Shown: in pieces, positions 27,060-39,139 of the stretch
Layout: each line of letters begins with the position of its first letter
Position numbering within the stretch: position 1 is the first letter of the stretch
From: a virus
Strand: one strand, 5' to 3'
DNA: 45,676 nucleotides
IMG/VR virus record: IMGVR_UViG_3300042317_001089
Span: 1-45,676 of that record
Made by a program: the position numbers and the translations under genes
The notes under the pieces: model-generated
What the model saw: only the letters and a program-made list of their open reading frames with translations
The model's database searches: none
What the model was told of the DNA's origin: nothing

Positions 27060-27083
27060 CACAAGTTGCGGTACTGCTACTCT
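27056..27083 (+). promoter_or_regulatory. Early promoter with repeated element (copy C)
   Basis: Consensus-like TTGACA (27056-27061), 16-base spacer and TACTCT (27078-27083). The stretch GTTGCGGTACTGCTACT (27065-27081) matches copy B at all but one position. It drives the prim-pol gene at 27123. Confidence 0.66.
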
Positions 27084-27122
27084 AGGTGGCGAAGCCGCAA
27101 CATCGCGAAGAAAGGCACTGCG

Positions 27123-27656
27123 ATGGACGAAGACTTGAAGGCACTTCTGGGCTACGGGGCGGCCTGTGTTCGCGTCGCCCGCGGCGGCAAGATCCCGCTC
27201 GGCACCGCGTGGAACACGCTCGCCTCGTCAGACCCGGCGACGATTGATCGGTGGCTGGCCGCTGGCGACAACGTCGGCCTGCTCTGCGGCTCCGGAAATC
27301 TCATCGACATCGAATACGACGATCCGGCGGGCCGCGAGACGCTCGCCAGCCTGGGCCTGATCGACATCGACACGCCCACGTGGGCCAGCAGTCGCGGCGA
27401 GCACCGTCTCTTCCGGCTCGCCGAGCCGCTGCCGCCGTGGGGCTGGAAAAAGCTCGCCGGGATCGAGGTGCGGTTGGGCGGCAAACCGGCGCAGAGCGTG
27501 TTGCCGCCCAGCACCCACCCCAGTGGTATCGCGTACCGCTGGCTGGTGAGTCCCGCCGACTGCGAGCCAGCGCGAATTGCGCTAGGTGACTTCAACAGCG
27601 CCGCGCGTTTCGGCCTGAAAAACGAGTGCGAAACGATTTTGGAAAAACTTGCTTGA
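27123..27656 (+). CDS. Stand-alone prim-pol domain protein
   Basis: A 177-residue protein resembling the N-terminal bifunctional primase/polymerase domain. It has the GKIPLGTAWNTLA entry, NVGLLCGSGNLIDIEYDD where motif I would lie (D62-I-E64), SSRGEHRLFR, and the PSTHPSG box with H132. Prim-pol proteins make primers or extend DNA; here no helicase is attached. Motif I has Glu in place of the usual second Asp, so activity is uncertain. Start at ATG 27123, after AAAGG. Confidence 0.75.
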   Translation: MDEDLKALLGYGAACVRVARGGKIPLGTAWNTLASSDPATIDRWLAAGDNVGLLCGSGNLIDIEYDDPAGRETLASLGLIDIDTPTWASSRGEHRLFRLAEPLPPWGWKKLAGIEVRLGGKPAQSVLPPSTHPSGIAYRWLVSPADCEPARIALGDFNSAARFGLKNECETILEKLA

Positions 27657-29996: not shown

Positions 29997-30821
29997 ATGA
30001 AAAAGAACATCACGACCTTCGCGGAGATCGCTCCGCTCTACCTTGCCGAACGAATCGTCTCGCAGCACTACGCGTCGAACGTCGCTAGGATCGCGGGCCG
30101 CGTCGGCACGCTCTCGGTCGAGCGGGTGAACCGCTGGCTGACCAAACGAGTCGAGGAAGTCAGCGGCCTGACGGCTAGGGCGGAGCGCGGCGTGCTTCTC
30201 ACGCTCTGGAACTGGGCCTATGACCGCGGCCTCGTGGATACCGCGCCGCGTGGCATCCTCAAGATGAAGGCCCGGCGAAAGCCGACGAAGGCGTGGACGC
30301 TGGGGCAACTCAAGAACTTGATCGCCGCCGCCCAGGCGAAGCGTGGGACGCGGCTCCGCGGCGGTGCTGATCTTGGCGAGTTCCTCGCCTGCTGGATTCT
30401 CGTCGGCTACGAGACCGGCGCGAGGTTCGGCGACGTGATGGCGTTCACGCGCGACCACCTCGACGGCGACACGCTTTCGTGGATTCAGAGCAAGACGGGC
30501 GACCCGATCGTGCGACCGCTCACGCCCGCGTGCCTGACGTTGATCGACGCGATGCTCGCGAAGTCGCCCGACGGCAGGATCCTCGGCTGGGTCTGCAAGC
30601 GACGGATGGCAATGCGGCACATGCGGCTCCTGCTCGACAGCGTCGGCATCGGCGGCAGCTCGAAGTGGTTGAGACGCAGCGGCGCGACCCACTGCGAGAT
30701 GGAAAAGGCCGGAACCGGACGGCTCCACCTGGGGCATCGGTCGCCCGCGCTCTTTGAGCAAGCCTATTGCGATTGGAGCCAGTTGCGCACCAAGACCCCA
30801 CGGACGCCCGCCATTCTCTAG
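29997..30821 (+). CDS. Second tyrosine recombinase, divergent
   Basis: A 274-residue tyrosine recombinase with R143 (TGARFGD), K166 (SKTGDP), R226 in KWLRRSGAT, H247 (LGH) and Y257 (AYCDW). The box-II His of HxxR is replaced by Lys (K223-W-L-R226), a conservative but uncommon change. It is compact and has an N-terminal arm domain. Being in the replication/recombination block, away from the integrase, it may resolve multimers, control copy number or be a decaying integrase. Confidence 0.82.
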   Translation: MKKNITTFAEIAPLYLAERIVSQHYASNVARIAGRVGTLSVERVNRWLTKRVEEVSGLTARAERGVLLTLWNWAYDRGLVDTAPRGILKMKARRKPTKAWTLGQLKNLIAAAQAKRGTRLRGGADLGEFLACWILVGYETGARFGDVMAFTRDHLDGDTLSWIQSKTGDPIVRPLTPACLTLIDAMLAKSPDGRILGWVCKRRMAMRHMRLLLDSVGIGGSSKWLRRSGATHCEMEKAGTGRLHLGHRSPALFEQAYCDWSQLRTKTPRTPAIL

Positions 30822-30847: not shown

Positions 30848-31315
30848 ATGAAAGACGACCAACAATTTATTCGCGACCTCTCCACGAGCCGCATCGCCGT
30901 GAACGAGTTCGCTTCACGGCTCCGCGACAAGGGGTGGCAGATATGGCTGCCGCCTGAGTCAGTGAGGCCAGACGCCACGGTACGCCGCGAGTACGGAGAC
31001 ACGGGCGACATCATGGTGCAGGGTCGCGTCGAGCACAAAGTGCGGACCAATCTACATTTCACCTGTCGCGAGGACTACCCCTACGACACGGTCATCGTGG
31101 ACGAGGTCTACAAGGAAGACTTGAAGGCCGACGACCCGGTGCTGGCCTACATCATTGAGAACGCCAGCCGCACGCACGCCGCCGTGGTCTACGGATGGAA
31201 GCGGCATCTCTGGCAGATCGAGCGCCGCCGCGACCCGATTCAGGGACGCGAGTGCGACTTCTACACGATCCACAAGGATCACGTTCGCTTCTGTCATCCG
31301 TCGGACGCGTTTTGA
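30848..31315 (+). CDS. PD-(D/E)XK-like nuclease protein
   Basis: A 155-residue protein from ATG 30848 with AAAGGA at 30834-30839. It has a helix then GDIMVQGRVEHKVR, giving D54, E62 and K64 in the spacing of a restriction-type nuclease core. A further HLWQIERRRDPIQGRECDFYTI strand follows. It is between the recombinase and the primase-helicase, consistent with a replication or recombination nuclease. The fold call is by motif only. Confidence 0.6.
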   Translation: MKDDQQFIRDLSTSRIAVNEFASRLRDKGWQIWLPPESVRPDATVRREYGDTGDIMVQGRVEHKVRTNLHFTCREDYPYDTVIVDEVYKEDLKADDPVLAYIIENASRTHAAVVYGWKRHLWQIERRRDPIQGRECDFYTIHKDHVRFCHPSDAF

Positions 31316-31326
31316 AAGGCAACAGC

Positions 31327-33081
31327 ATGGACGCTCTCTCCCAGTGCATCGATTTTTTGGGCTCGATCTTCGAGCCCGACGACATCATCGAGTTCAGGCC
31401 GCTGCCCCCCGCGGCTGGCCGTCGGTGGTCTACGCTCACCGAGATCCCCGACATCGTTGAGTGGCTGGAAAGGCTCAACAGCGACGACCACCTTCGGGTG
31501 CACAGTTACTTCGGGGCGAACCCGAGGAAGGCGAAGGGCTCCAGCCAAGCCGAAGGCGTCGCCCTGGCCCGCTGCCTGTTTGCCGATTTCGACGGCGGCA
31601 TCGTGCTCGAAGACGCCTACGCGCGTATCAAGGCGGCCGACCTCCCGTGGCCGACGGCGATCCTTGAGAGCGGCGGCGGCGTGCACGCGTGGTGGCGGCT
31701 CTCGCAGCCGATGACGGACGCGGACGCGTGGCACGAGCGGATGAAGGCTTTGGCCGGGGCTCTCGGCTCCGATCAAAGCGTGTGCGATTGGCCGCGGATT
31801 ATGCGTTTGCCGGGCTTCGTGAATTGGAAGCACGAGCAGAGGCCGCTGGCGGTCCTCAAAGACTGCGACCCGACACGGGTCTATGACCTGAAGCGGTTCC
31901 AGCGGCAGGCCGCGCAGTCGATCGTGGTTGCGCCGAAGAGTCTAAGCGAACTCTCGCGTCGGTTCCTCGAAGAGGGCTACGTCATGACCGCCGGGCGGCG
32001 GCAGACGATGTTTTGCGTCGCCTGCGACCTCGCGGCCCGTGGGTGGAGTGTTGCCGAGGCCACGACGCTGATCATGCGCCGGATGCGGTCTGTCGGCCTC
32101 CGCCAGGACGACCTCGAAGACTGCCCGCGACAGATCGCGAACGCGTGGAAGCGACAGCGGCTCCCGGTGCTCGGCCCGGCCGAAGAGGCCCACCCGGTGC
32201 ACGACGCCGAGACCGAGACGAAAACGCCAACTCTTGTGGACGCGATCGACGCCTGGGTGCAGCAGGAAGAGACCCCGGCTCTGGCGACCGGCATCACGTC
32301 CCTCGACCGGCTCTTTGACGGCGGGCTGCCGCTGGGCCAGATGACGGCGGTGGCGGCGGCCCCCGGCGTCGGCAAGTCTGCCCTCGCGCTACAACTCGCC
32401 CTGTCGGCCCTGAAGGGTCAGGGCGACCTCGTGGCGGCGTGGTGCCTGGGCGAGATGACGCGGGCGGCACTTGCGGCCCGTGCGATCACTCTCTGGGGCG
32501 GCGAGGCCAACGGCCTCACGCTCCAGCAAATCATCAAGAAGGCAGACGGCTCGCGGCAGATCGGTGCCGACCTCGCCAACTCAATTGGCGACCGGCTCAA
32601 ACTCATCGAACCGCCGCTCATCATCGACCGCATCGAACGGGCAGTCGAAAAGGACGGCGTGAAACTTCTGATCGTGGACTACCTCCAGCTCGTGCGCAGC
32701 ACGCGGTCTTATCCCGACAAGACGACCGAGATCAATGACGTGCTGCAGAAACTCCGCGAGATCACGAACACGAAAAACCTCGCCTGCCTGCTGGTCACCA
32801 ACATTGCGAAGGGCGTCGATGCCTCGACCGAGATCGGGAACATCGGGAAGGGGTCGAACCAGATTGATTTCGACGTGGACAACTTTCTCTTCGGCGAGCG
32901 GACGCCAGAGGTCGGCGGCGAAGGCGAGGTGCTGGTGAAGTGGCACTGCAAGAAGCTGCGGCAGGGCCAGCGGAACGACGTGGAACTGTGGTTCCACGGG
33001 CAGTACCAGACGTTTGAGGAAAACGTAGCCGCCGAGTACCCGGAGTTCTCAAACGTCTCCTGGGGGGCTGGCAATGGCTGA
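31327..33081 (+). CDS. Primase-helicase fusion
   Basis: A 584-residue protein. The N-terminal ~200 residues look like a RepB/AEP-type primase: D87-F-D89 in CLFADFDGG, H120 in GGGVHAWWRL and SVCDWPRIMRLPGFVNWK. The C-terminal half is a DnaB/RecA-like helicase with Walker A APGVGKS (K350) and Walker B LLIVDYLQLV (D451). A Glu/Thr-rich linker joins them. It would unwind and prime phage DNA. Start ATG 31327; an in-frame GTG/TTG further upstream would run into the nuclease gene. It overlaps the initiator-like gene by eight bases. Confidence 0.88.
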   Translation: MDALSQCIDFLGSIFEPDDIIEFRPLPPAAGRRWSTLTEIPDIVEWLERLNSDDHLRVHSYFGANPRKAKGSSQAEGVALARCLFADFDGGIVLEDAYARIKAADLPWPTAILESGGGVHAWWRLSQPMTDADAWHERMKALAGALGSDQSVCDWPRIMRLPGFVNWKHEQRPLAVLKDCDPTRVYDLKRFQRQAAQSIVVAPKSLSELSRRFLEEGYVMTAGRRQTMFCVACDLAARGWSVAEATTLIMRRMRSVGLRQDDLEDCPRQIANAWKRQRLPVLGPAEEAHPVHDAETETKTPTLVDAIDAWVQQEETPALATGITSLDRLFDGGLPLGQMTAVAAAPGVGKSALALQLALSALKGQGDLVAAWCLGEMTRAALAARAITLWGGEANGLTLQQIIKKADGSRQIGADLANSIGDRLKLIEPPLIIDRIERAVEKDGVKLLIVDYLQLVRSTRSYPDKTTEINDVLQKLREITNTKNLACLLVTNIAKGVDASTEIGNIGKGSNQIDFDVDNFLFGERTPEVGGEGEVLVKWHCKKLRQGQRNDVELWFHGQYQTFEENVAAEYPEFSNVSWGAGNG

Positions 33082-33715
33082 GAAAAAGCGAGACCCGTCC
33101 GCGAAGGGCGAACTCCGCCGCCGTCACCGGGCTTTGATCGAGGCTGGCATTGTGGCCCGGCTGCGGAGCGAAGGGCGTCTAATGCTCTGCTACGCGCTCT
33201 ATTGGGCGAGTTTCGACAAGTGCACCGTGTCGTTCAGTTTCCGCGGCGCGGCCAAGATGCTGGGCGTACAGCCCAACGCCGCGATGCGTGGCGTTCGGCA
33301 ACTGGTCGAGGCCGGAGCCCTGTCTGAACTGCCCAGGACTGAACACTCGTCAAGGCGTCAGTACGAGATTTTCCCCACGATGGGGGCGCACACGAGCGGT
33401 GTACGGGGCGCACACGATCCGTGTACGGGGGCGCACACGAGCGGTGTACGGAGCGCACACGAGCGGTGTGCGCAGCGCACACGAGCGGTGTACGGAGCGC
33501 ACACGAGCCGTGTGCGCTTATCAAGTATCTCTCTGGGTAATTCAATAATTACCCAGAGAGAGATACAGGGTAAATCAGCCCCCTGCCGGGGCGTTTCGGA
33601 AACGCCCGGCGGGGGCAACCCCGGCACTCTGTCGGGCGAGGAGGGGGACGGCCGCGCGGCTTCCCCGGTTGCACAGGTGAACACACTCACGGAGGAGGTG
33701 CGCAGTGACGGTTGA
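33074..33715 (+). CDS. Winged-helix replication initiator-like protein, contains origin iterons
   Basis: A 213-residue protein. Residues 1 to about 103 are a basic, winged-helix-like region (LCYALYWASFDKCTVSFSFRGAAKMLGVQPNAAMRGVRQL). From residue 105 the frame passes through six DNA iterons that give imperfect protein repeats (GAHTSGVR, SAHERC, RTRAVY), showing DNA rather than protein conservation. The tail is low-complexity. This matches lambda O, where iterons lie inside the initiator gene. It probably binds its own iterons and loads the helicase encoded upstream. Start overlaps the primase-helicase end. Confidence 0.75.
   Translation: MAEKKRDPSAKGELRRRHRALIEAGIVARLRSEGRLMLCYALYWASFDKCTVSFSFRGAAKMLGVQPNAAMRGVRQLVEAGALSELPRTEHSSRRQYEIFPTMGAHTSGVRGAHDPCTGAHTSGVRSAHERCAQRTRAVYGAHTSRVRLSSISLGNSIITQREIQGKSAPCRGVSETPGGGNPGTLSGEEGDGRAASPVAQVNTLTEEVRSDG
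33386..33518 (+). repeat. Six 22-bp dyad iterons, candidate replication origin
   Basis: Units begin at 33386, 33408, 33431, 33453, 33475 and 33497 (steps 22, 23, 22, 22, 22). Each starts GCGCACACGA and ends GTGTAC or GTGTGC; units 4 and 6 carry full 8-bp arms GCGCACAC and GTGTGCGC around five bases. As 22 is not a multiple of three, the coding frame changes from unit to unit. An AT-richer region with a strong stem follows. The layout is that of iteron origins. Confidence 0.85.
33528..33561 (+). repeat. 15-bp perfect inverted repeat next to the iterons
   Basis: TCTCTCTGGGTAATT (33528-33542), loop CAAT, AATTACCCAGAGAGA (33547-33561). It is a perfect 15-bp stem, 10 bases after the last iteron, in a region clearly richer in A/T than the rest. 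It could be the melting or primer-start part of the origin, an operator, or an RNA hairpin inside the gene. No T-run follows. Confidence 0.8.
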
Positions 33716-33941
33716 TGCGGAACACAAGATCACGGACAGGCAGCGGGAGGTCTTTGACTTCATCCGCGACGAGTACCAGGGCCGAGGCTACGGGCTGACC
33801 GTCCGCGAGATCGCGGCCCGCTTCGGCTGGACGAGCCCCAACGCGGCGGCGATTCACCTCAAGCGTCTCAAGACCTACGGGCTGGTGACCTGGGAGCCGA
33901 ACGCCTCGCGCACGATCCGCCCAACGGAGGCCGCGCTATGA
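33705..33941 (+). CDS. LexA N-terminal-type HTH protein
   Basis: A 78-residue protein from GTG 33705 with GGAGGAGG at 33691-33698. It matches the LexA DNA-binding domain: ITDRQREVFDFIRDEYQGRGYGLTVREIAARFGWTSPNAAAIHLKRLKTYGLV. No self-cleaving peptidase part follows, so it cannot be cut in the SOS way by itself. It may block host LexA sites or be a phage repressor. A winged helix (WEPNASRTIRP) ends it. Confidence 0.82.
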   Translation: MTVDAEHKITDRQREVFDFIRDEYQGRGYGLTVREIAARFGWTSPNAAAIHLKRLKTYGLVTWEPNASRTIRPTEAAL

Positions 33942-34129: not shown

Positions 34130-34334
34130 GGCTTGGGTGTGTGTCTCGCTCGGTGCAATTCTCCACGCGGCGACGTTCGCCGTGGGGGTGATGGTTGGGA
34201 TTTCCCTCTCTCGAAAGGACTTGAGAAATGACAGCGATAGCCGAACGAAAGCGACGGAGTTCGCCTACTGGCATGGTGTTGAACGTCGCGACGCTGCGGA
34301 AGGCGTTGGCCACGGTCAAAGACGCCGTCCCTAA
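34119..34334 (+). CDS. Possible small membrane protein overlapping the clamp gene
   Basis: A 71-residue frame from GTG 34119. Residues 5-28 (AWVCVSLGAILHAATFAVGV) make one good membrane helix, with a basic end. The second half overlaps the first 107 bases of the sliding clamp gene in another frame, which lowers confidence. If real it is a single-pass protein of unknown role; otherwise the bases before 34228 form a short leader. Confidence 0.4.
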   Translation: MTIEAWVCVSLGAILHAATFAVGVMVGISLSRKDLRNDSDSRTKATEFAYWHGVERRDAAEGVGHGQRRRP

Positions 34335-35349
34335 GAGGTCGCCGCGGGCGATCCTGCAAAGCGTGCGGCTGGCCGACGGCCTGCTCACCGCCTCGGACGG
34401 CGAACTGCGGATCGACGCGGACCTCCCCGGGTTCGACGGCCCGGCCCTGCTCCTGCCGTTCAACCGGCTGGACGCGATCTTGAAGGCGATCACGTGCGAG
34501 GAGCTGCAGATCACCAGCAGCGGCAACTCGTGCAAGATCGCCACGCAGACGGGCACCTGGGTGCTGCCGACGGAAGACGCCGCGGAGTACCCGGCGGGCG
34601 AGATGCCGGATGCCCCGTCGATCACCCGGCTGCCGACGGACCAGTTCCGCCGCGCGGTCAACGGCGTCGTGTACGCCCACGATGACGAGAGCACGCGGTT
34701 TGCCCTGTCGGCCGTGCAGATCGAGGTGAACGACGGCGTCGTGCACTTCGTCGCGACGGACGGCCGCCGCATTTCGATTGTCGAGATGGAGCACGACCTC
34801 GCGGTCGATGACTCCGAGACGCTGGTGCCAGCCCGGGCGCTGCACATCCTAGCGAAGATCGTGAGCGGCTCCGGCGAGGAGGCCGTGCAGATCGACGCCA
34901 ACGCGTCTGAACTGGTTGCGACCACCCCCGGGATCCGCGTGGCGGCCCGGCTGATCGAAGGGCGGTTCCCGCGTTGGCGTGACGCGGTGCCGTCGCATGA
35001 CACGGAGCCGACGACGGTGCTCATCAGCGAGTTGATGGCGGCGACCACGGCCGCGGCCATCTGCACGAGCGAGTCCAGCCGCGGCGTGGATTTCACGTTC
35101 GCCTCCGACGGCCTCCGACTGCACGGGCAGTCGAGCGGCGTTGGCGAGTCGAGCGTCACGTGCCCGATCGTGGAGTTCGGCCACGAGTGCACGGTCAAGC
35201 TCGACCCGGGATTCGTGCTTGAGTTTCTCGAAGGCTTGCCCGCCGACGGCGAGCCCACGGTCAGCATCCAAGCAAAGGGCGCTGGCGATTCGGTTGTGTT
35301 TCGTTCCGAAGACTTCACAGGAGTAATCGCCCCGCTGGCGAATGACTAA
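34228..35349 (+). CDS. dnaN: DNA polymerase sliding clamp (beta subunit-like)
   Basis: A 373-residue protein of bacterial DnaN length with its three-domain pattern: VLNVATLRKALATVKDAVPKR, RFALSAVQIEVNDGVVHFVATDGRRI at the domain 2 start, RLIEGRFPRW and the last domain ending EDFTGVIAPLAND. It encircles DNA and tethers polymerases. Carrying a clamp without a clear polymerase gene in the window suggests it replaces or competes with the host clamp. Start ATG 34228 has AAAGGA at 34215-34220. Confidence 0.9.
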   Translation: MTAIAERKRRSSPTGMVLNVATLRKALATVKDAVPKRSPRAILQSVRLADGLLTASDGELRIDADLPGFDGPALLLPFNRLDAILKAITCEELQITSSGNSCKIATQTGTWVLPTEDAAEYPAGEMPDAPSITRLPTDQFRRAVNGVVYAHDDESTRFALSAVQIEVNDGVVHFVATDGRRISIVEMEHDLAVDDSETLVPARALHILAKIVSGSGEEAVQIDANASELVATTPGIRVAARLIEGRFPRWRDAVPSHDTEPTTVLISELMAATTAAAICTSESSRGVDFTFASDGLRLHGQSSGVGESSVTCPIVEFGHECTVKLDPGFVLEFLEGLPADGEPTVSIQAKGAGDSVVFRSEDFTGVIAPLAND

Positions 35350-36036: not shown

Positions 36037-36450
36037 ATGCTGCCCATGTTCATCGCGACCGAATCACCGCTGACGCTGGAGCCGGAGGACGCCGAATTCA
36101 TGGCGAAGCACCTCTGTCGCGTCGGCAGCGAGATGCAGCAGGAGTTTGTCCGCTGCGAGTCCGAGACGCCGATGGTTGTGATCTACGGCCCCGAGCCGCT
36201 CGGCTGGGTGGCGACGCACATCTGGCGGAGCCTGCAGACAATCGAGGGCTTCGTGGATCCGCTCCACCGTCGCCGAGGCTTTGCCCGCATTGGGGCGCTG
36301 GTGCTCATCGCCAACGGCTACCTCGACGTGACGAAAGCGGTTGCCGTGTTTTCGCCGGAGTGTGTGGTGCTGGCCCGGTCGTTGGGCTTCACCGACATCC
36401 GACAGTTTCGCCGTAATCGCTACGGCGATTGGGAGCCTGCGCCCGACTGA
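36037..36450 (+). CDS. GNAT-type N-acetyltransferase
   Basis: A 137-residue protein with GNAT features: a GWVATHIW strand, then VDPLHRRRGFARIGALVL, the acetyl-CoA pyrophosphate loop (RRRGFA, residues 78-83), and VAVFSPECVVLARSLGFTDI near the end. It moves an acetyl group to an amine; target unknown. It may modify a host protein or an aminated base or sugar. It stands 64 bases after the exported protein gene; that short gap has no clear feature. Confidence 0.72.
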   Translation: MLPMFIATESPLTLEPEDAEFMAKHLCRVGSEMQQEFVRCESETPMVVIYGPEPLGWVATHIWRSLQTIEGFVDPLHRRRGFARIGALVLIANGYLDVTKAVAVFSPECVVLARSLGFTDIRQFRRNRYGDWEPAPD

Positions 36451-36491
36451 AATCCTGCAAGAGTCGCGGCTGCCGGTGGCAGGATGCGTTT

Positions 36492-37274
36492 ATGCGTTGG
36501 GGCTTTATCCTGTTTTTGTGCTTGGCGTCGTCGGTGCTTGCGGGCACCACCGACGACGCTATCCCCGACGCCCGCTATCTCGATTACGCGACGGGCTTCG
36601 CGCCGTACACGTTGCGGCTCGTGGCCCGCGACCCGAGCGGACGGCTGATGACGGCCTCGGCGGTCGCGATCGCTCCGCACTACGCGCTGACGGCCGCCCA
36701 CGTCGCCGCCGACATCGCCTCGTGCACGCTGGCCAGCGGCAACAAGACCGTGCCGGTCCGTCAGGTCTGGGTGCACGGCGAGTGGCAAGACACCAACCTG
36801 GGCGTGGCCGACATCGCGATCCTGCGGACAGGCGAGGCGTTCGGCCTAGGCTTCTACCCGCCGCTGTGCGATGGTGGCGAAGAGGTCGGCGAGGTCGTCA
36901 GCATCGCGGGCTGGGGCATCACGGGGCGGCTCTCGACGGGCCACACGCACACCGACGGCCGCCTACGGGCGGGCACGAACACGATCGAGCGATTCGAGCG
37001 GGCGGTGATCGTCTGCCTCGCGAAGCCCGGGTCGTCGCCCCTCGAATACTGCATCGCCCCAGGCTGCAGCGGCGGGCCGCTGTTTCTGAGCGGGCGACTC
37101 GCGGGCATCAACTCGTTCACGTCGCGAGACGCTGGCACGGGCAAACTCCGCAGCGGCACCGGCGAGGAGAGCGGGCACACGCGGGTGAGTCTGTACCGCG
37201 AGTGGATCCTGTCCATCGTGGGCGCGGAACTTGACGCCACTTCTACCGTGGCGGCATGGAACAAGACGCAATAG
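36492..37274 (+). CDS. Exported trypsin-like serine protease
   Basis: A 260-residue protein starting at ATG 36492 with AGGA at 36480-36483. It has a signal peptide (MRWGFILFLCLASSVLAG). The chymotrypsin-type triad is H70 (LTAAH), D107 (ADIAIL) and S193 in GCSGGP, where Cys replaces the usual Asp before Ser; VSIAGWG is also typical. It should act outside the cytoplasm. Unlike the prohead protease it is not an assembly gene and looks like a cargo gene altering the host surface or competing phages. Its end overlaps the next small gene. Confidence 0.82.
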   Translation: MRWGFILFLCLASSVLAGTTDDAIPDARYLDYATGFAPYTLRLVARDPSGRLMTASAVAIAPHYALTAAHVAADIASCTLASGNKTVPVRQVWVHGEWQDTNLGVADIAILRTGEAFGLGFYPPLCDGGEEVGEVVSIAGWGITGRLSTGHTHTDGRLRAGTNTIERFERAVIVCLAKPGSSPLEYCIAPGCSGGPLFLSGRLAGINSFTSRDAGTGKLRSGTGEESGHTRVSLYREWILSIVGAELDATSTVAAWNKTQ

Positions 37275-38444: not shown

Positions 38445-39139
38445 ACATCACCATCAGCGGATACAACCGGCCCGACTACCTCGCCCGCACGTGCGAGGCG
38501 GTGTCGAAGTGCGTCGGCGTTTCAAGCTGCCGCGTCGCCGTGCTCTTAGATCCGTGCGAAGAGACGGAGCAGTCGAAGGAGATCGCCGCCCGGTTCGGCT
38601 TTGAGTGCCTGACCTACACTGAGCACGCGGGATGCAACGACGCGATCTACACGTGCATGAGGTACGGGTTTGAAGTTATGCAGAGCGAGTTTCATCTGCA
38701 CTTTGAGGACGACACGGTGCCGACGCGCGATGCCCTGCTCTGGTTCTCGTGGGCTCGCGACAAGTACCGCCACGATCCGCACGTGATGACGGTGAGCGGC
38801 TACCAGCAACAGAGTAACGGCAAGCCGGAGCAATGCGGCACGCGGCGGTGGTTCACGCCGTGGGGGTGGGGCACGTGGGTCGATCGCTGGGTCGAGATCG
38901 CCCCTCGCTGGACGAGCAAGGAAGGCCCGTCGTGGGACATCATCTTGAACAACGTCATTCGCGGCACGCGGTGGGAGGCGTTCCCGACCGTCAGCCGGAT
39001 TCAAAACATCGGGGCCGAGAAAGGCACGCACGTCTCTGGTCCTGAGTGGCACGCGAAGTACCACCACGTACCCGTGACGGCCGACGATCTGGGCGGCGAG
39101 GTCATCCGCGACTTCGTGGAAGTGGAGCCGCTGCTGTGA
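38441..39139 (+). CDS. Glycosyltransferase-like protein, GNT-I/GT2-like
   Basis: A 232-residue protein. It opens ITISGYNRPDYLARTCEAV, has LHFEDDTVPTRDALLWFSWA with the metal-binding E89-D-D91, and FTPWGWGTWVDRW in the acceptor region. This fits a GT-A enzyme similar to GNT-I-type transferases. Start ATG 38441 overlaps the methyltransferase stop. Substrate unknown. Confidence 0.75.
   Translation: MNITISGYNRPDYLARTCEAVSKCVGVSSCRVAVLLDPCEETEQSKEIAARFGFECLTYTEHAGCNDAIYTCMRYGFEVMQSEFHLHFEDDTVPTRDALLWFSWARDKYRHDPHVMTVSGYQQQSNGKPEQCGTRRWFTPWGWGTWVDRWVEIAPRWTSKEGPSWDIILNNVIRGTRWEAFPTVSRIQNIGAEKGTHVSGPEWHAKYHHVPVTADDLGGEVIRDFVEVEPLL

Follow-up and report, generated by a model that had tools for sequence, protein, structure and literature searches.

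Here we analysed a stretch of viral DNA of 45,676 nt (IMG/VR record IMGVR_UViG_3300042317_001089, positions 1–45,676), referred to below as the window, in which a gene for a winged helix-turn-helix (wHTH) protein carries a tandem array of dyads and, behind it, an AT-rich element and two hairpins, H1 and H2 (Table 1). The gene directly upstream encodes a fused primase-helicase. Its product matches Pfam RepB_primase (1.4e-8, residues 144–215) and DnaB_C (1.4e-20, residues 363–609), the PHROG DnaB-like helicase (2e-27), and DnaB (4e-12) and a PrimPol AEP domain (6e-4) in the PDB. The start of the wHTH gene overlaps the stop of the primase-helicase gene, so the two genes are probably translationally coupled. 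Among INPHARED phage records, the helicase has matches at the domain level only and the wHTH protein has no close relative, and scans of genome contigs with single-sequence and alignment queries returned no relative of the helicase in a host or prophage.

Several other genes lie near this pair. A second AEP-type primase-polymerase, distinct from the primase part of the fusion protein, is encoded at 27066–27656 (PF09250, 1e-21), and an integrase-like protein at 29997–30821 (PHROG 1.9e-20, no Pfam match), which suggests that the phage may be temperate. The wHTH gene is followed by a gene for a 78-aa LexA-type DNA-binding domain protein without a peptidase part (33705–33941), which follows the array in many relatives, and by a phage-encoded DNA polymerase sliding clamp at 34228–35349 (PHROG processivity factor, 3.5e-50; Pfam beta clamp). 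A trypsin-like protease gene (36429–37274; PF00089, 3e-12) lies downstream of the replication genes. No tRNA genes were found in the window.

Table 1 Features of the candidate origin region and the gene upstream of it
Feature	Position	Strand	Basis and remarks
Primase-helicase gene: N-terminal RepB'-type (AEP) primase domain fused to a DnaB-type helicase domain	31195–33081	+	Pfam, PHROG, PDB
Putative initiator gene, 213 aa	33074–33715	+	ORF; wHTH at residues ~10–100; array and hairpins encode a mostly disordered tail
Iteron array, six dyads, core GNNCAC-N5-GTGNNC	33386–33517		Tandem Repeats Finder, motif scan, period kept in relatives
Dyad cores	33388–33404, 33410–33426, 33433–33449, 33455–33471, 33477–33493, 33499–33515		Motif match
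AT-rich unwinding-element candidate	33518–33567		66% AT versus ~35% AT in the region
Hairpin H1, 18-bp stem with one 2-nt bulge, 4-nt loop, inside the AT-rich element	33525–33566		Complementarity, fold, covariation
CA motifs	33522, 33543, 33554, 33566 (span 33522–33567)	+	~10.5-bp phase; one of the usual five missing here
GC-rich hairpin H2, no T run after it	33578–33616		Fold, covariation

The product of the putative initiator gene is predicted to have a winged helix-turn-helix at residues 10–100, followed by an array-encoded part and a tail that are mostly disordered. An AlphaFold2 model built with 17 relatives has pLDDT values of ~85–96 over residues 11–100 and below 50 for residues 103–126 and 136–213. 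Foldseek on this model returned winged-helix proteins only, mainly repressors and with weak E-values, among them the plasmid initiators 4pt7 and 4pql and the Rep-DUE complex 8ac8. Relatives of the protein fall into Pfam wHTH families (best match HTH_36, 5.8e-7). Pfam and PDB sequence searches did not assign the protein specifically to any known initiator family: it has no PDB sequence match, and Phage_rep_O matched neither the window protein nor appears among the 25 Pfam families listed for its relatives.

The first-pass annotation had described six dyads, 22–23 bp apart, within a wHTH gene directly after the primase-helicase gene, and Tandem Repeats Finder, a motif scan and the ORFs bore this out. 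The dyads follow one another at steps of 22, 23, 22, 22 and 22 bp. Tandem Repeats Finder placed a repeat of period 22 at 33386–33513 (5.8 copies, score 198); no other tandem repeat of the window comes near it in strength. The core motif has seven matches in the whole window against 1.6 expected, a count reached by none of 100 shuffles, and six of the seven form the array; the window has no second array. Autocorrelation of the array at lag 22 was 0.64, against a maximum of 0.42 in shuffles. The proposal that this spacing puts the sites on nearly the same face of the helix holds only approximately, with 22 bp amounting to 2.1 turns of B-DNA and a drift of ~34 degrees per step.

About 50 IMG/VR contigs, from a family of uncultured bacterial viruses, carry this system of wHTH gene and array. 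Using the wHTH protein, a wHTH alignment and the helicase as queries, we obtained ~30 distinct loci, and the array follows the wHTH domain in every one of those that was read. These loci share descent, and their counts are not counts of independent events. We also scanned 2.9 million IMG/VR viral contigs for three consecutive dyads as bare DNA, and 45 contigs matched. All 22 of the newly found ones have a homologous wHTH gene beside the array, upstream of it, which indicates that the bare pattern matched solely this kind of origin among the contigs examined. A DnaB-type helicase is also present in 21 of the 22, the exception lying at a contig edge. The relatives are contig fragments. Depending on the locus, the gene after the wHTH gene encodes a LexA-type HTH or is small and unrelated. 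The LexA-type protein is disfavoured as the binder of the array, since 7 of 18 array-keeping records, some of which may be fragments, did not yield it.

Across these relatives the array has a period of 22–23 bp and usually five to seven dyads, with the CAC-N5-GTG core present in 27 of 30 loci. Missing iterons in close relatives had been named beforehand as an outcome against an origin here; close relatives instead keep the iterons. Variable columns number 4 of 132 in the array and 38 of 312 in the part that codes for the wHTH (Fisher p = 0.002), and the four in the array all fall in the 5-nt spacers. Over the 118 dyads compared (19 loci), conservation of the G at -3 reaches 94% on either side, and the outer bases -2 and -1 vary freely. 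Within a dyad the outer arm bases match in 61.2% of cases versus 62.8% with arms dealt inside the locus (P = 0.85); the spacer does show covariation, between its first and last base (0.64 versus 0.39). Because the outer arm bases do not covary, the dyads appear to be paired half-sites for a protein, and RNA or DNA hairpins formed by the dyads were rejected on the same ground.

The binding site itself varies between lineages. Three loci (L013, L018 and L053) have the half-sites GGGAAC and GTTCC, also GCGCCCCC, and a recognition helix with Glu instead of Gln. Lag-22 autocorrelation is strong in L013 and L018; L053 has its best lag at 21, and weakly. In distant relatives the site sequence is replaced, yet the array keeps its 22-bp period, its position within the gene and the AT-rich element behind it. 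The presumed recognition helix has the form RGxxQ: the third residue after the invariant Arg-Gly is Gln in CAC-type loci, Arg where the half-site is TGGCAC and Glu where it is GGGAAC (L028 included in the comparison). This change of recognition helix with site sequence is consistent with the wHTH protein being the reader of the array, on the strength of only ~2 independent switches. Array length may vary as well. Two loci with near-identical flanks, L042 and L043, have two dyads (L042 3269–3400) and seven dyads (L043 3089–3330), respectively, and the difference of 110 bp shifts the frame of the L042 tail. The shorter array may be a natural contraction or an assembly collapse; if it is real, the full array is not essential.

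In 21 of 22 loci the frame of the putative initiator gene runs open across the array; the exception is L022, where the gene frame ends inside the array. Stops interrupt the other two frames in 9 and 13 of the 22. Over the combined span of array and H1, stops occur in 2 of 22 loci in the gene frame and in 16 and 21 in the other frames. Since the frame stays open, the array DNA appears to have a dual use, with the tail probably translated and the same DNA serving as sites. The repeat had been thought to be kept for DNA binding rather than for protein; in view of the open frame this statement needs to be softened, and both uses coexist.

No 50-mer between 30 and 37 kb is richer in AT than the one directly behind the array, which coincides with the H1 region; the 50-mer at 33519 ranks in the top 0.03% of the window. 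In 18 of 23 loci, likewise, the AT content within 1.2 kb peaks at H1. Its arms at 33528–33542 and 33547–33561 are 100% complementary, and H1 and H2 together fold with a z-score of -9.0 in the window. Compensatory changes in H1 are present in close relatives and family-wide. In all 23 representatives the H1 centre lies 30–33.5 nt past the last dyad, and in 20 of 22 further contigs from the pattern scan it lies 30–34.5 nt past it; in the other two, L087 and L101, H1 was missed by the procedure that picks side or chain automatically. In H1, 95% of the pairs are Watson-Crick, with 26 further pair types, compared with 45% and 11 when arms are dealt among loci, and H2 pairs reach 93.5% with 14 further types, compared with 51% and 8. 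The hairpins were picked for good pairing, so a control with shuffled sequences matters for these counts: H1 beats 100 of 100 shuffled sequences in 19 of 20 loci, and in the remaining locus, L027, it falls short because a bulge blocks the ungapped search. H2 alone often fails to beat its shuffles in single loci, and the evidence for it consists of its position and its covariation across loci. No terminator-like site was found at H2, which has no U tract.

CA dinucleotides are spaced across H1 with a 10.5-bp phase. Their power was 29.5 versus 9.6 in shuffled sequences and was reached by none of 300 shuffles at any period, in a test devised once the pattern had been seen and run on 13 loci picked as diverse. 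Elsewhere between -475 and +420, array and H1 excepted, no segment of 56 nt rose above 16.1 at 10.5–11 bp. The phasing is not a product of the palindrome, since TG has no 10.5-bp phase. In the CAGT clade the H1 stem is mismatched where the CA motif is kept. Nor are the CA motifs simply extra half-sites of the same specificity, since their phasing is kept in the GGGAAC lineage. They may instead reflect bending, or contacts of the helicase or a host factor.

This arrangement resembles the origin of phage lambda, in which iterons lie in the middle of gene O with an AT-rich tract directly 3' and a palindrome after it (PMC5043065, PMC7466680). In the lambda record NC_001416 the iterons occupy 39034–39118 of O at steps of 20, 24 and 23 bp; the tract 3' of them is 80% AT, and the best palindrome (11 of 12 bp) lies 43–70 nt beyond iteron 4. 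Both systems have inverted-repeat iterons about two turns apart, placed in the initiator gene after its DNA-binding part, with an AT-rich tract directly 3' and a palindrome near, and in both the iteron number varies (4 in lambda, 6 in some lambdoid phages). Unlike O, however, the window protein has no match to the O sequence family and no predicted folded C-terminal domain. The window helicase is phage-encoded and upstream, with no P-like loader gene recognised next door, whereas a lambda-type origin recruits the DnaB of the host through a P-type loader encoded beside the initiator, and the palindrome lies within the AT-rich element at a fixed distance, whereas that of lambda follows the AT-rich tract. 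The label "lambda-type" used in the first-pass annotation is therefore apt as a functional analogy, for iterons in an initiator gene with an AT-rich 3' side, and fails as a statement of membership. Phage SPP1 offers a second parallel (PMC6316719): oriL lies in the initiator gene 38, with repeats and an AT-rich unwinding element, and SPP1 also encodes its own DnaB-family helicase (gp40). SPP1 repeats are direct, whereas those of the window are dyads, and no counterpart of the SPP1 loader gp39 or of its second origin oriR was found in the window. Judged from sequence, the plan is closely shared with lambda and the intragenic origin is lambda- and SPP1-like.

We conclude, with a probability of about 0.86, that this locus is a replication origin of a double-stranded DNA phage inside the gene of its own initiator, working by a wHTH protein on the array. 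The array, its period, its dual coding, the hairpins, their geometry and the association with a helicase are read directly from the sequences, and the functional reading draws on this anatomy and on what is established for lambda and SPP1 (PMC5043065, PMC7466680, PMC6316719). By analogy with these, we infer that the putative initiator would bind the iterons, melt the DNA and allow helicase entry. The wHTH protein, probably as dimers, would bind the six dyads about two helical turns apart and wrap them into a nucleoprotein complex like the lambda O-some. This complex would strain and open the adjoining AT-rich element, which would probably stay open or adopt a defined structure with each strand folding back as a hairpin, and the phage's own DnaB-type helicase, encoded just upstream, would enter the opened strand. 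A more active part for H1, in which the array extrudes or holds a folded single-strand landing site where the DnaB-type helicase loads without a dedicated loader, is a tentative idea that we consider rather unlikely; no helicase loader was matched in the ORFs scanned. GC skew, put forward earlier as a check, has no turn at the site and no turning point globally. In phages GC skew is weak evidence.

The window also shares iterons, an initiator, a helicase, a RepB'-type primase and nearby hairpins with oriV of the IncQ plasmid RSF1010, where iterons and RepC are joined by the helicase RepA and by hairpin priming sites read by RepB' (PMC4234260, PMC4434180). An origin of that kind would have the initiator on the iterons and H1 and H2 as single-strand initiation sites for the fused RepB'-type primase, which would prime beside the hairpin. 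The RepB_primase domain of the upstream enzyme and the two conserved hairpins directly after the iterons fit this account, but we regard it as unlikely. In one group of loci (L041–L050), the wHTH gene, the array and H1 are all kept with a DnaB-type helicase that, where read (L044, L046 and L049), has 431–433 aa and no fused AEP primase, so the hairpins cannot depend on the primase-helicase fusion. These phages may have a separate primase gene elsewhere. H1 also lies in an AT-rich element and keeps a fixed distance to the array, and in this it differs from an independent priming site. RSF1010 differs further in having three separate proteins where the window has primase and helicase fused, and its iterons are not reported inside the initiator gene (PMC4234260, PMC4434180). 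The stem-loop origin of pRN1 and phage BIP-1 (PMC4234260) likewise combines an AEP primase-helicase and a wHTH element with a stem-loop that covaries and lies downstream of the replication gene; there, however, the helicase is of the SF3 type, no iteron array is present, the wHTH lies within the replication protein and the stem-loop is ~100 nt.

The array could also be an operator or a partition centromere, with the wHTH protein repressing its own operon or segregating a plasmid-like prophage and replication starting elsewhere. Such proteins often bind dyads close to their own genes, the Foldseek matches are mainly repressors and the next gene is a LexA-type HTH. We hold this to be very unlikely: a sigma-70-like promoter was not found, the ORFs scanned contain no ParA-like ATPase, and the array always occurs with a DnaB-type helicase and an AT-rich H1 where the contig reaches far enough. 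Finally, the elements could act in RNA, with H1 and H2 as transcript hairpins (attenuator, stabiliser or terminator) and the array as a coding repeat. Hairpins that covary and lie at a gene's 3' end are typical of RNA elements, and the frame is open through the array; a step of 22, however, breaks codon periodicity, the dyad arms lack covariation and no match was found in Rfam, nor a U tract. H1 is in addition AT-rich and locked in its distance to the array, and the 10.5-bp CA phasing is a property of duplex DNA, all of which makes a role at the RNA level very unlikely.

Taken as an origin of replication, the system serves a phage-encoded DnaB-type helicase, with or without a RepB'-like primase fusion, and this origin design connects phages whose primase and helicase are fused with others whose DnaB-type helicase carries no such fusion. 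Three dyads at 22-bp steps provide a DNA signature for this kind of origin. The ~50 contigs form a natural series of one design, in which spacing, geometry and secondary structure are constant and the binding-site sequence varies with the initiator. Such a series lets the reading of the site by the initiator be separated from the needs of melting and helicase entry.
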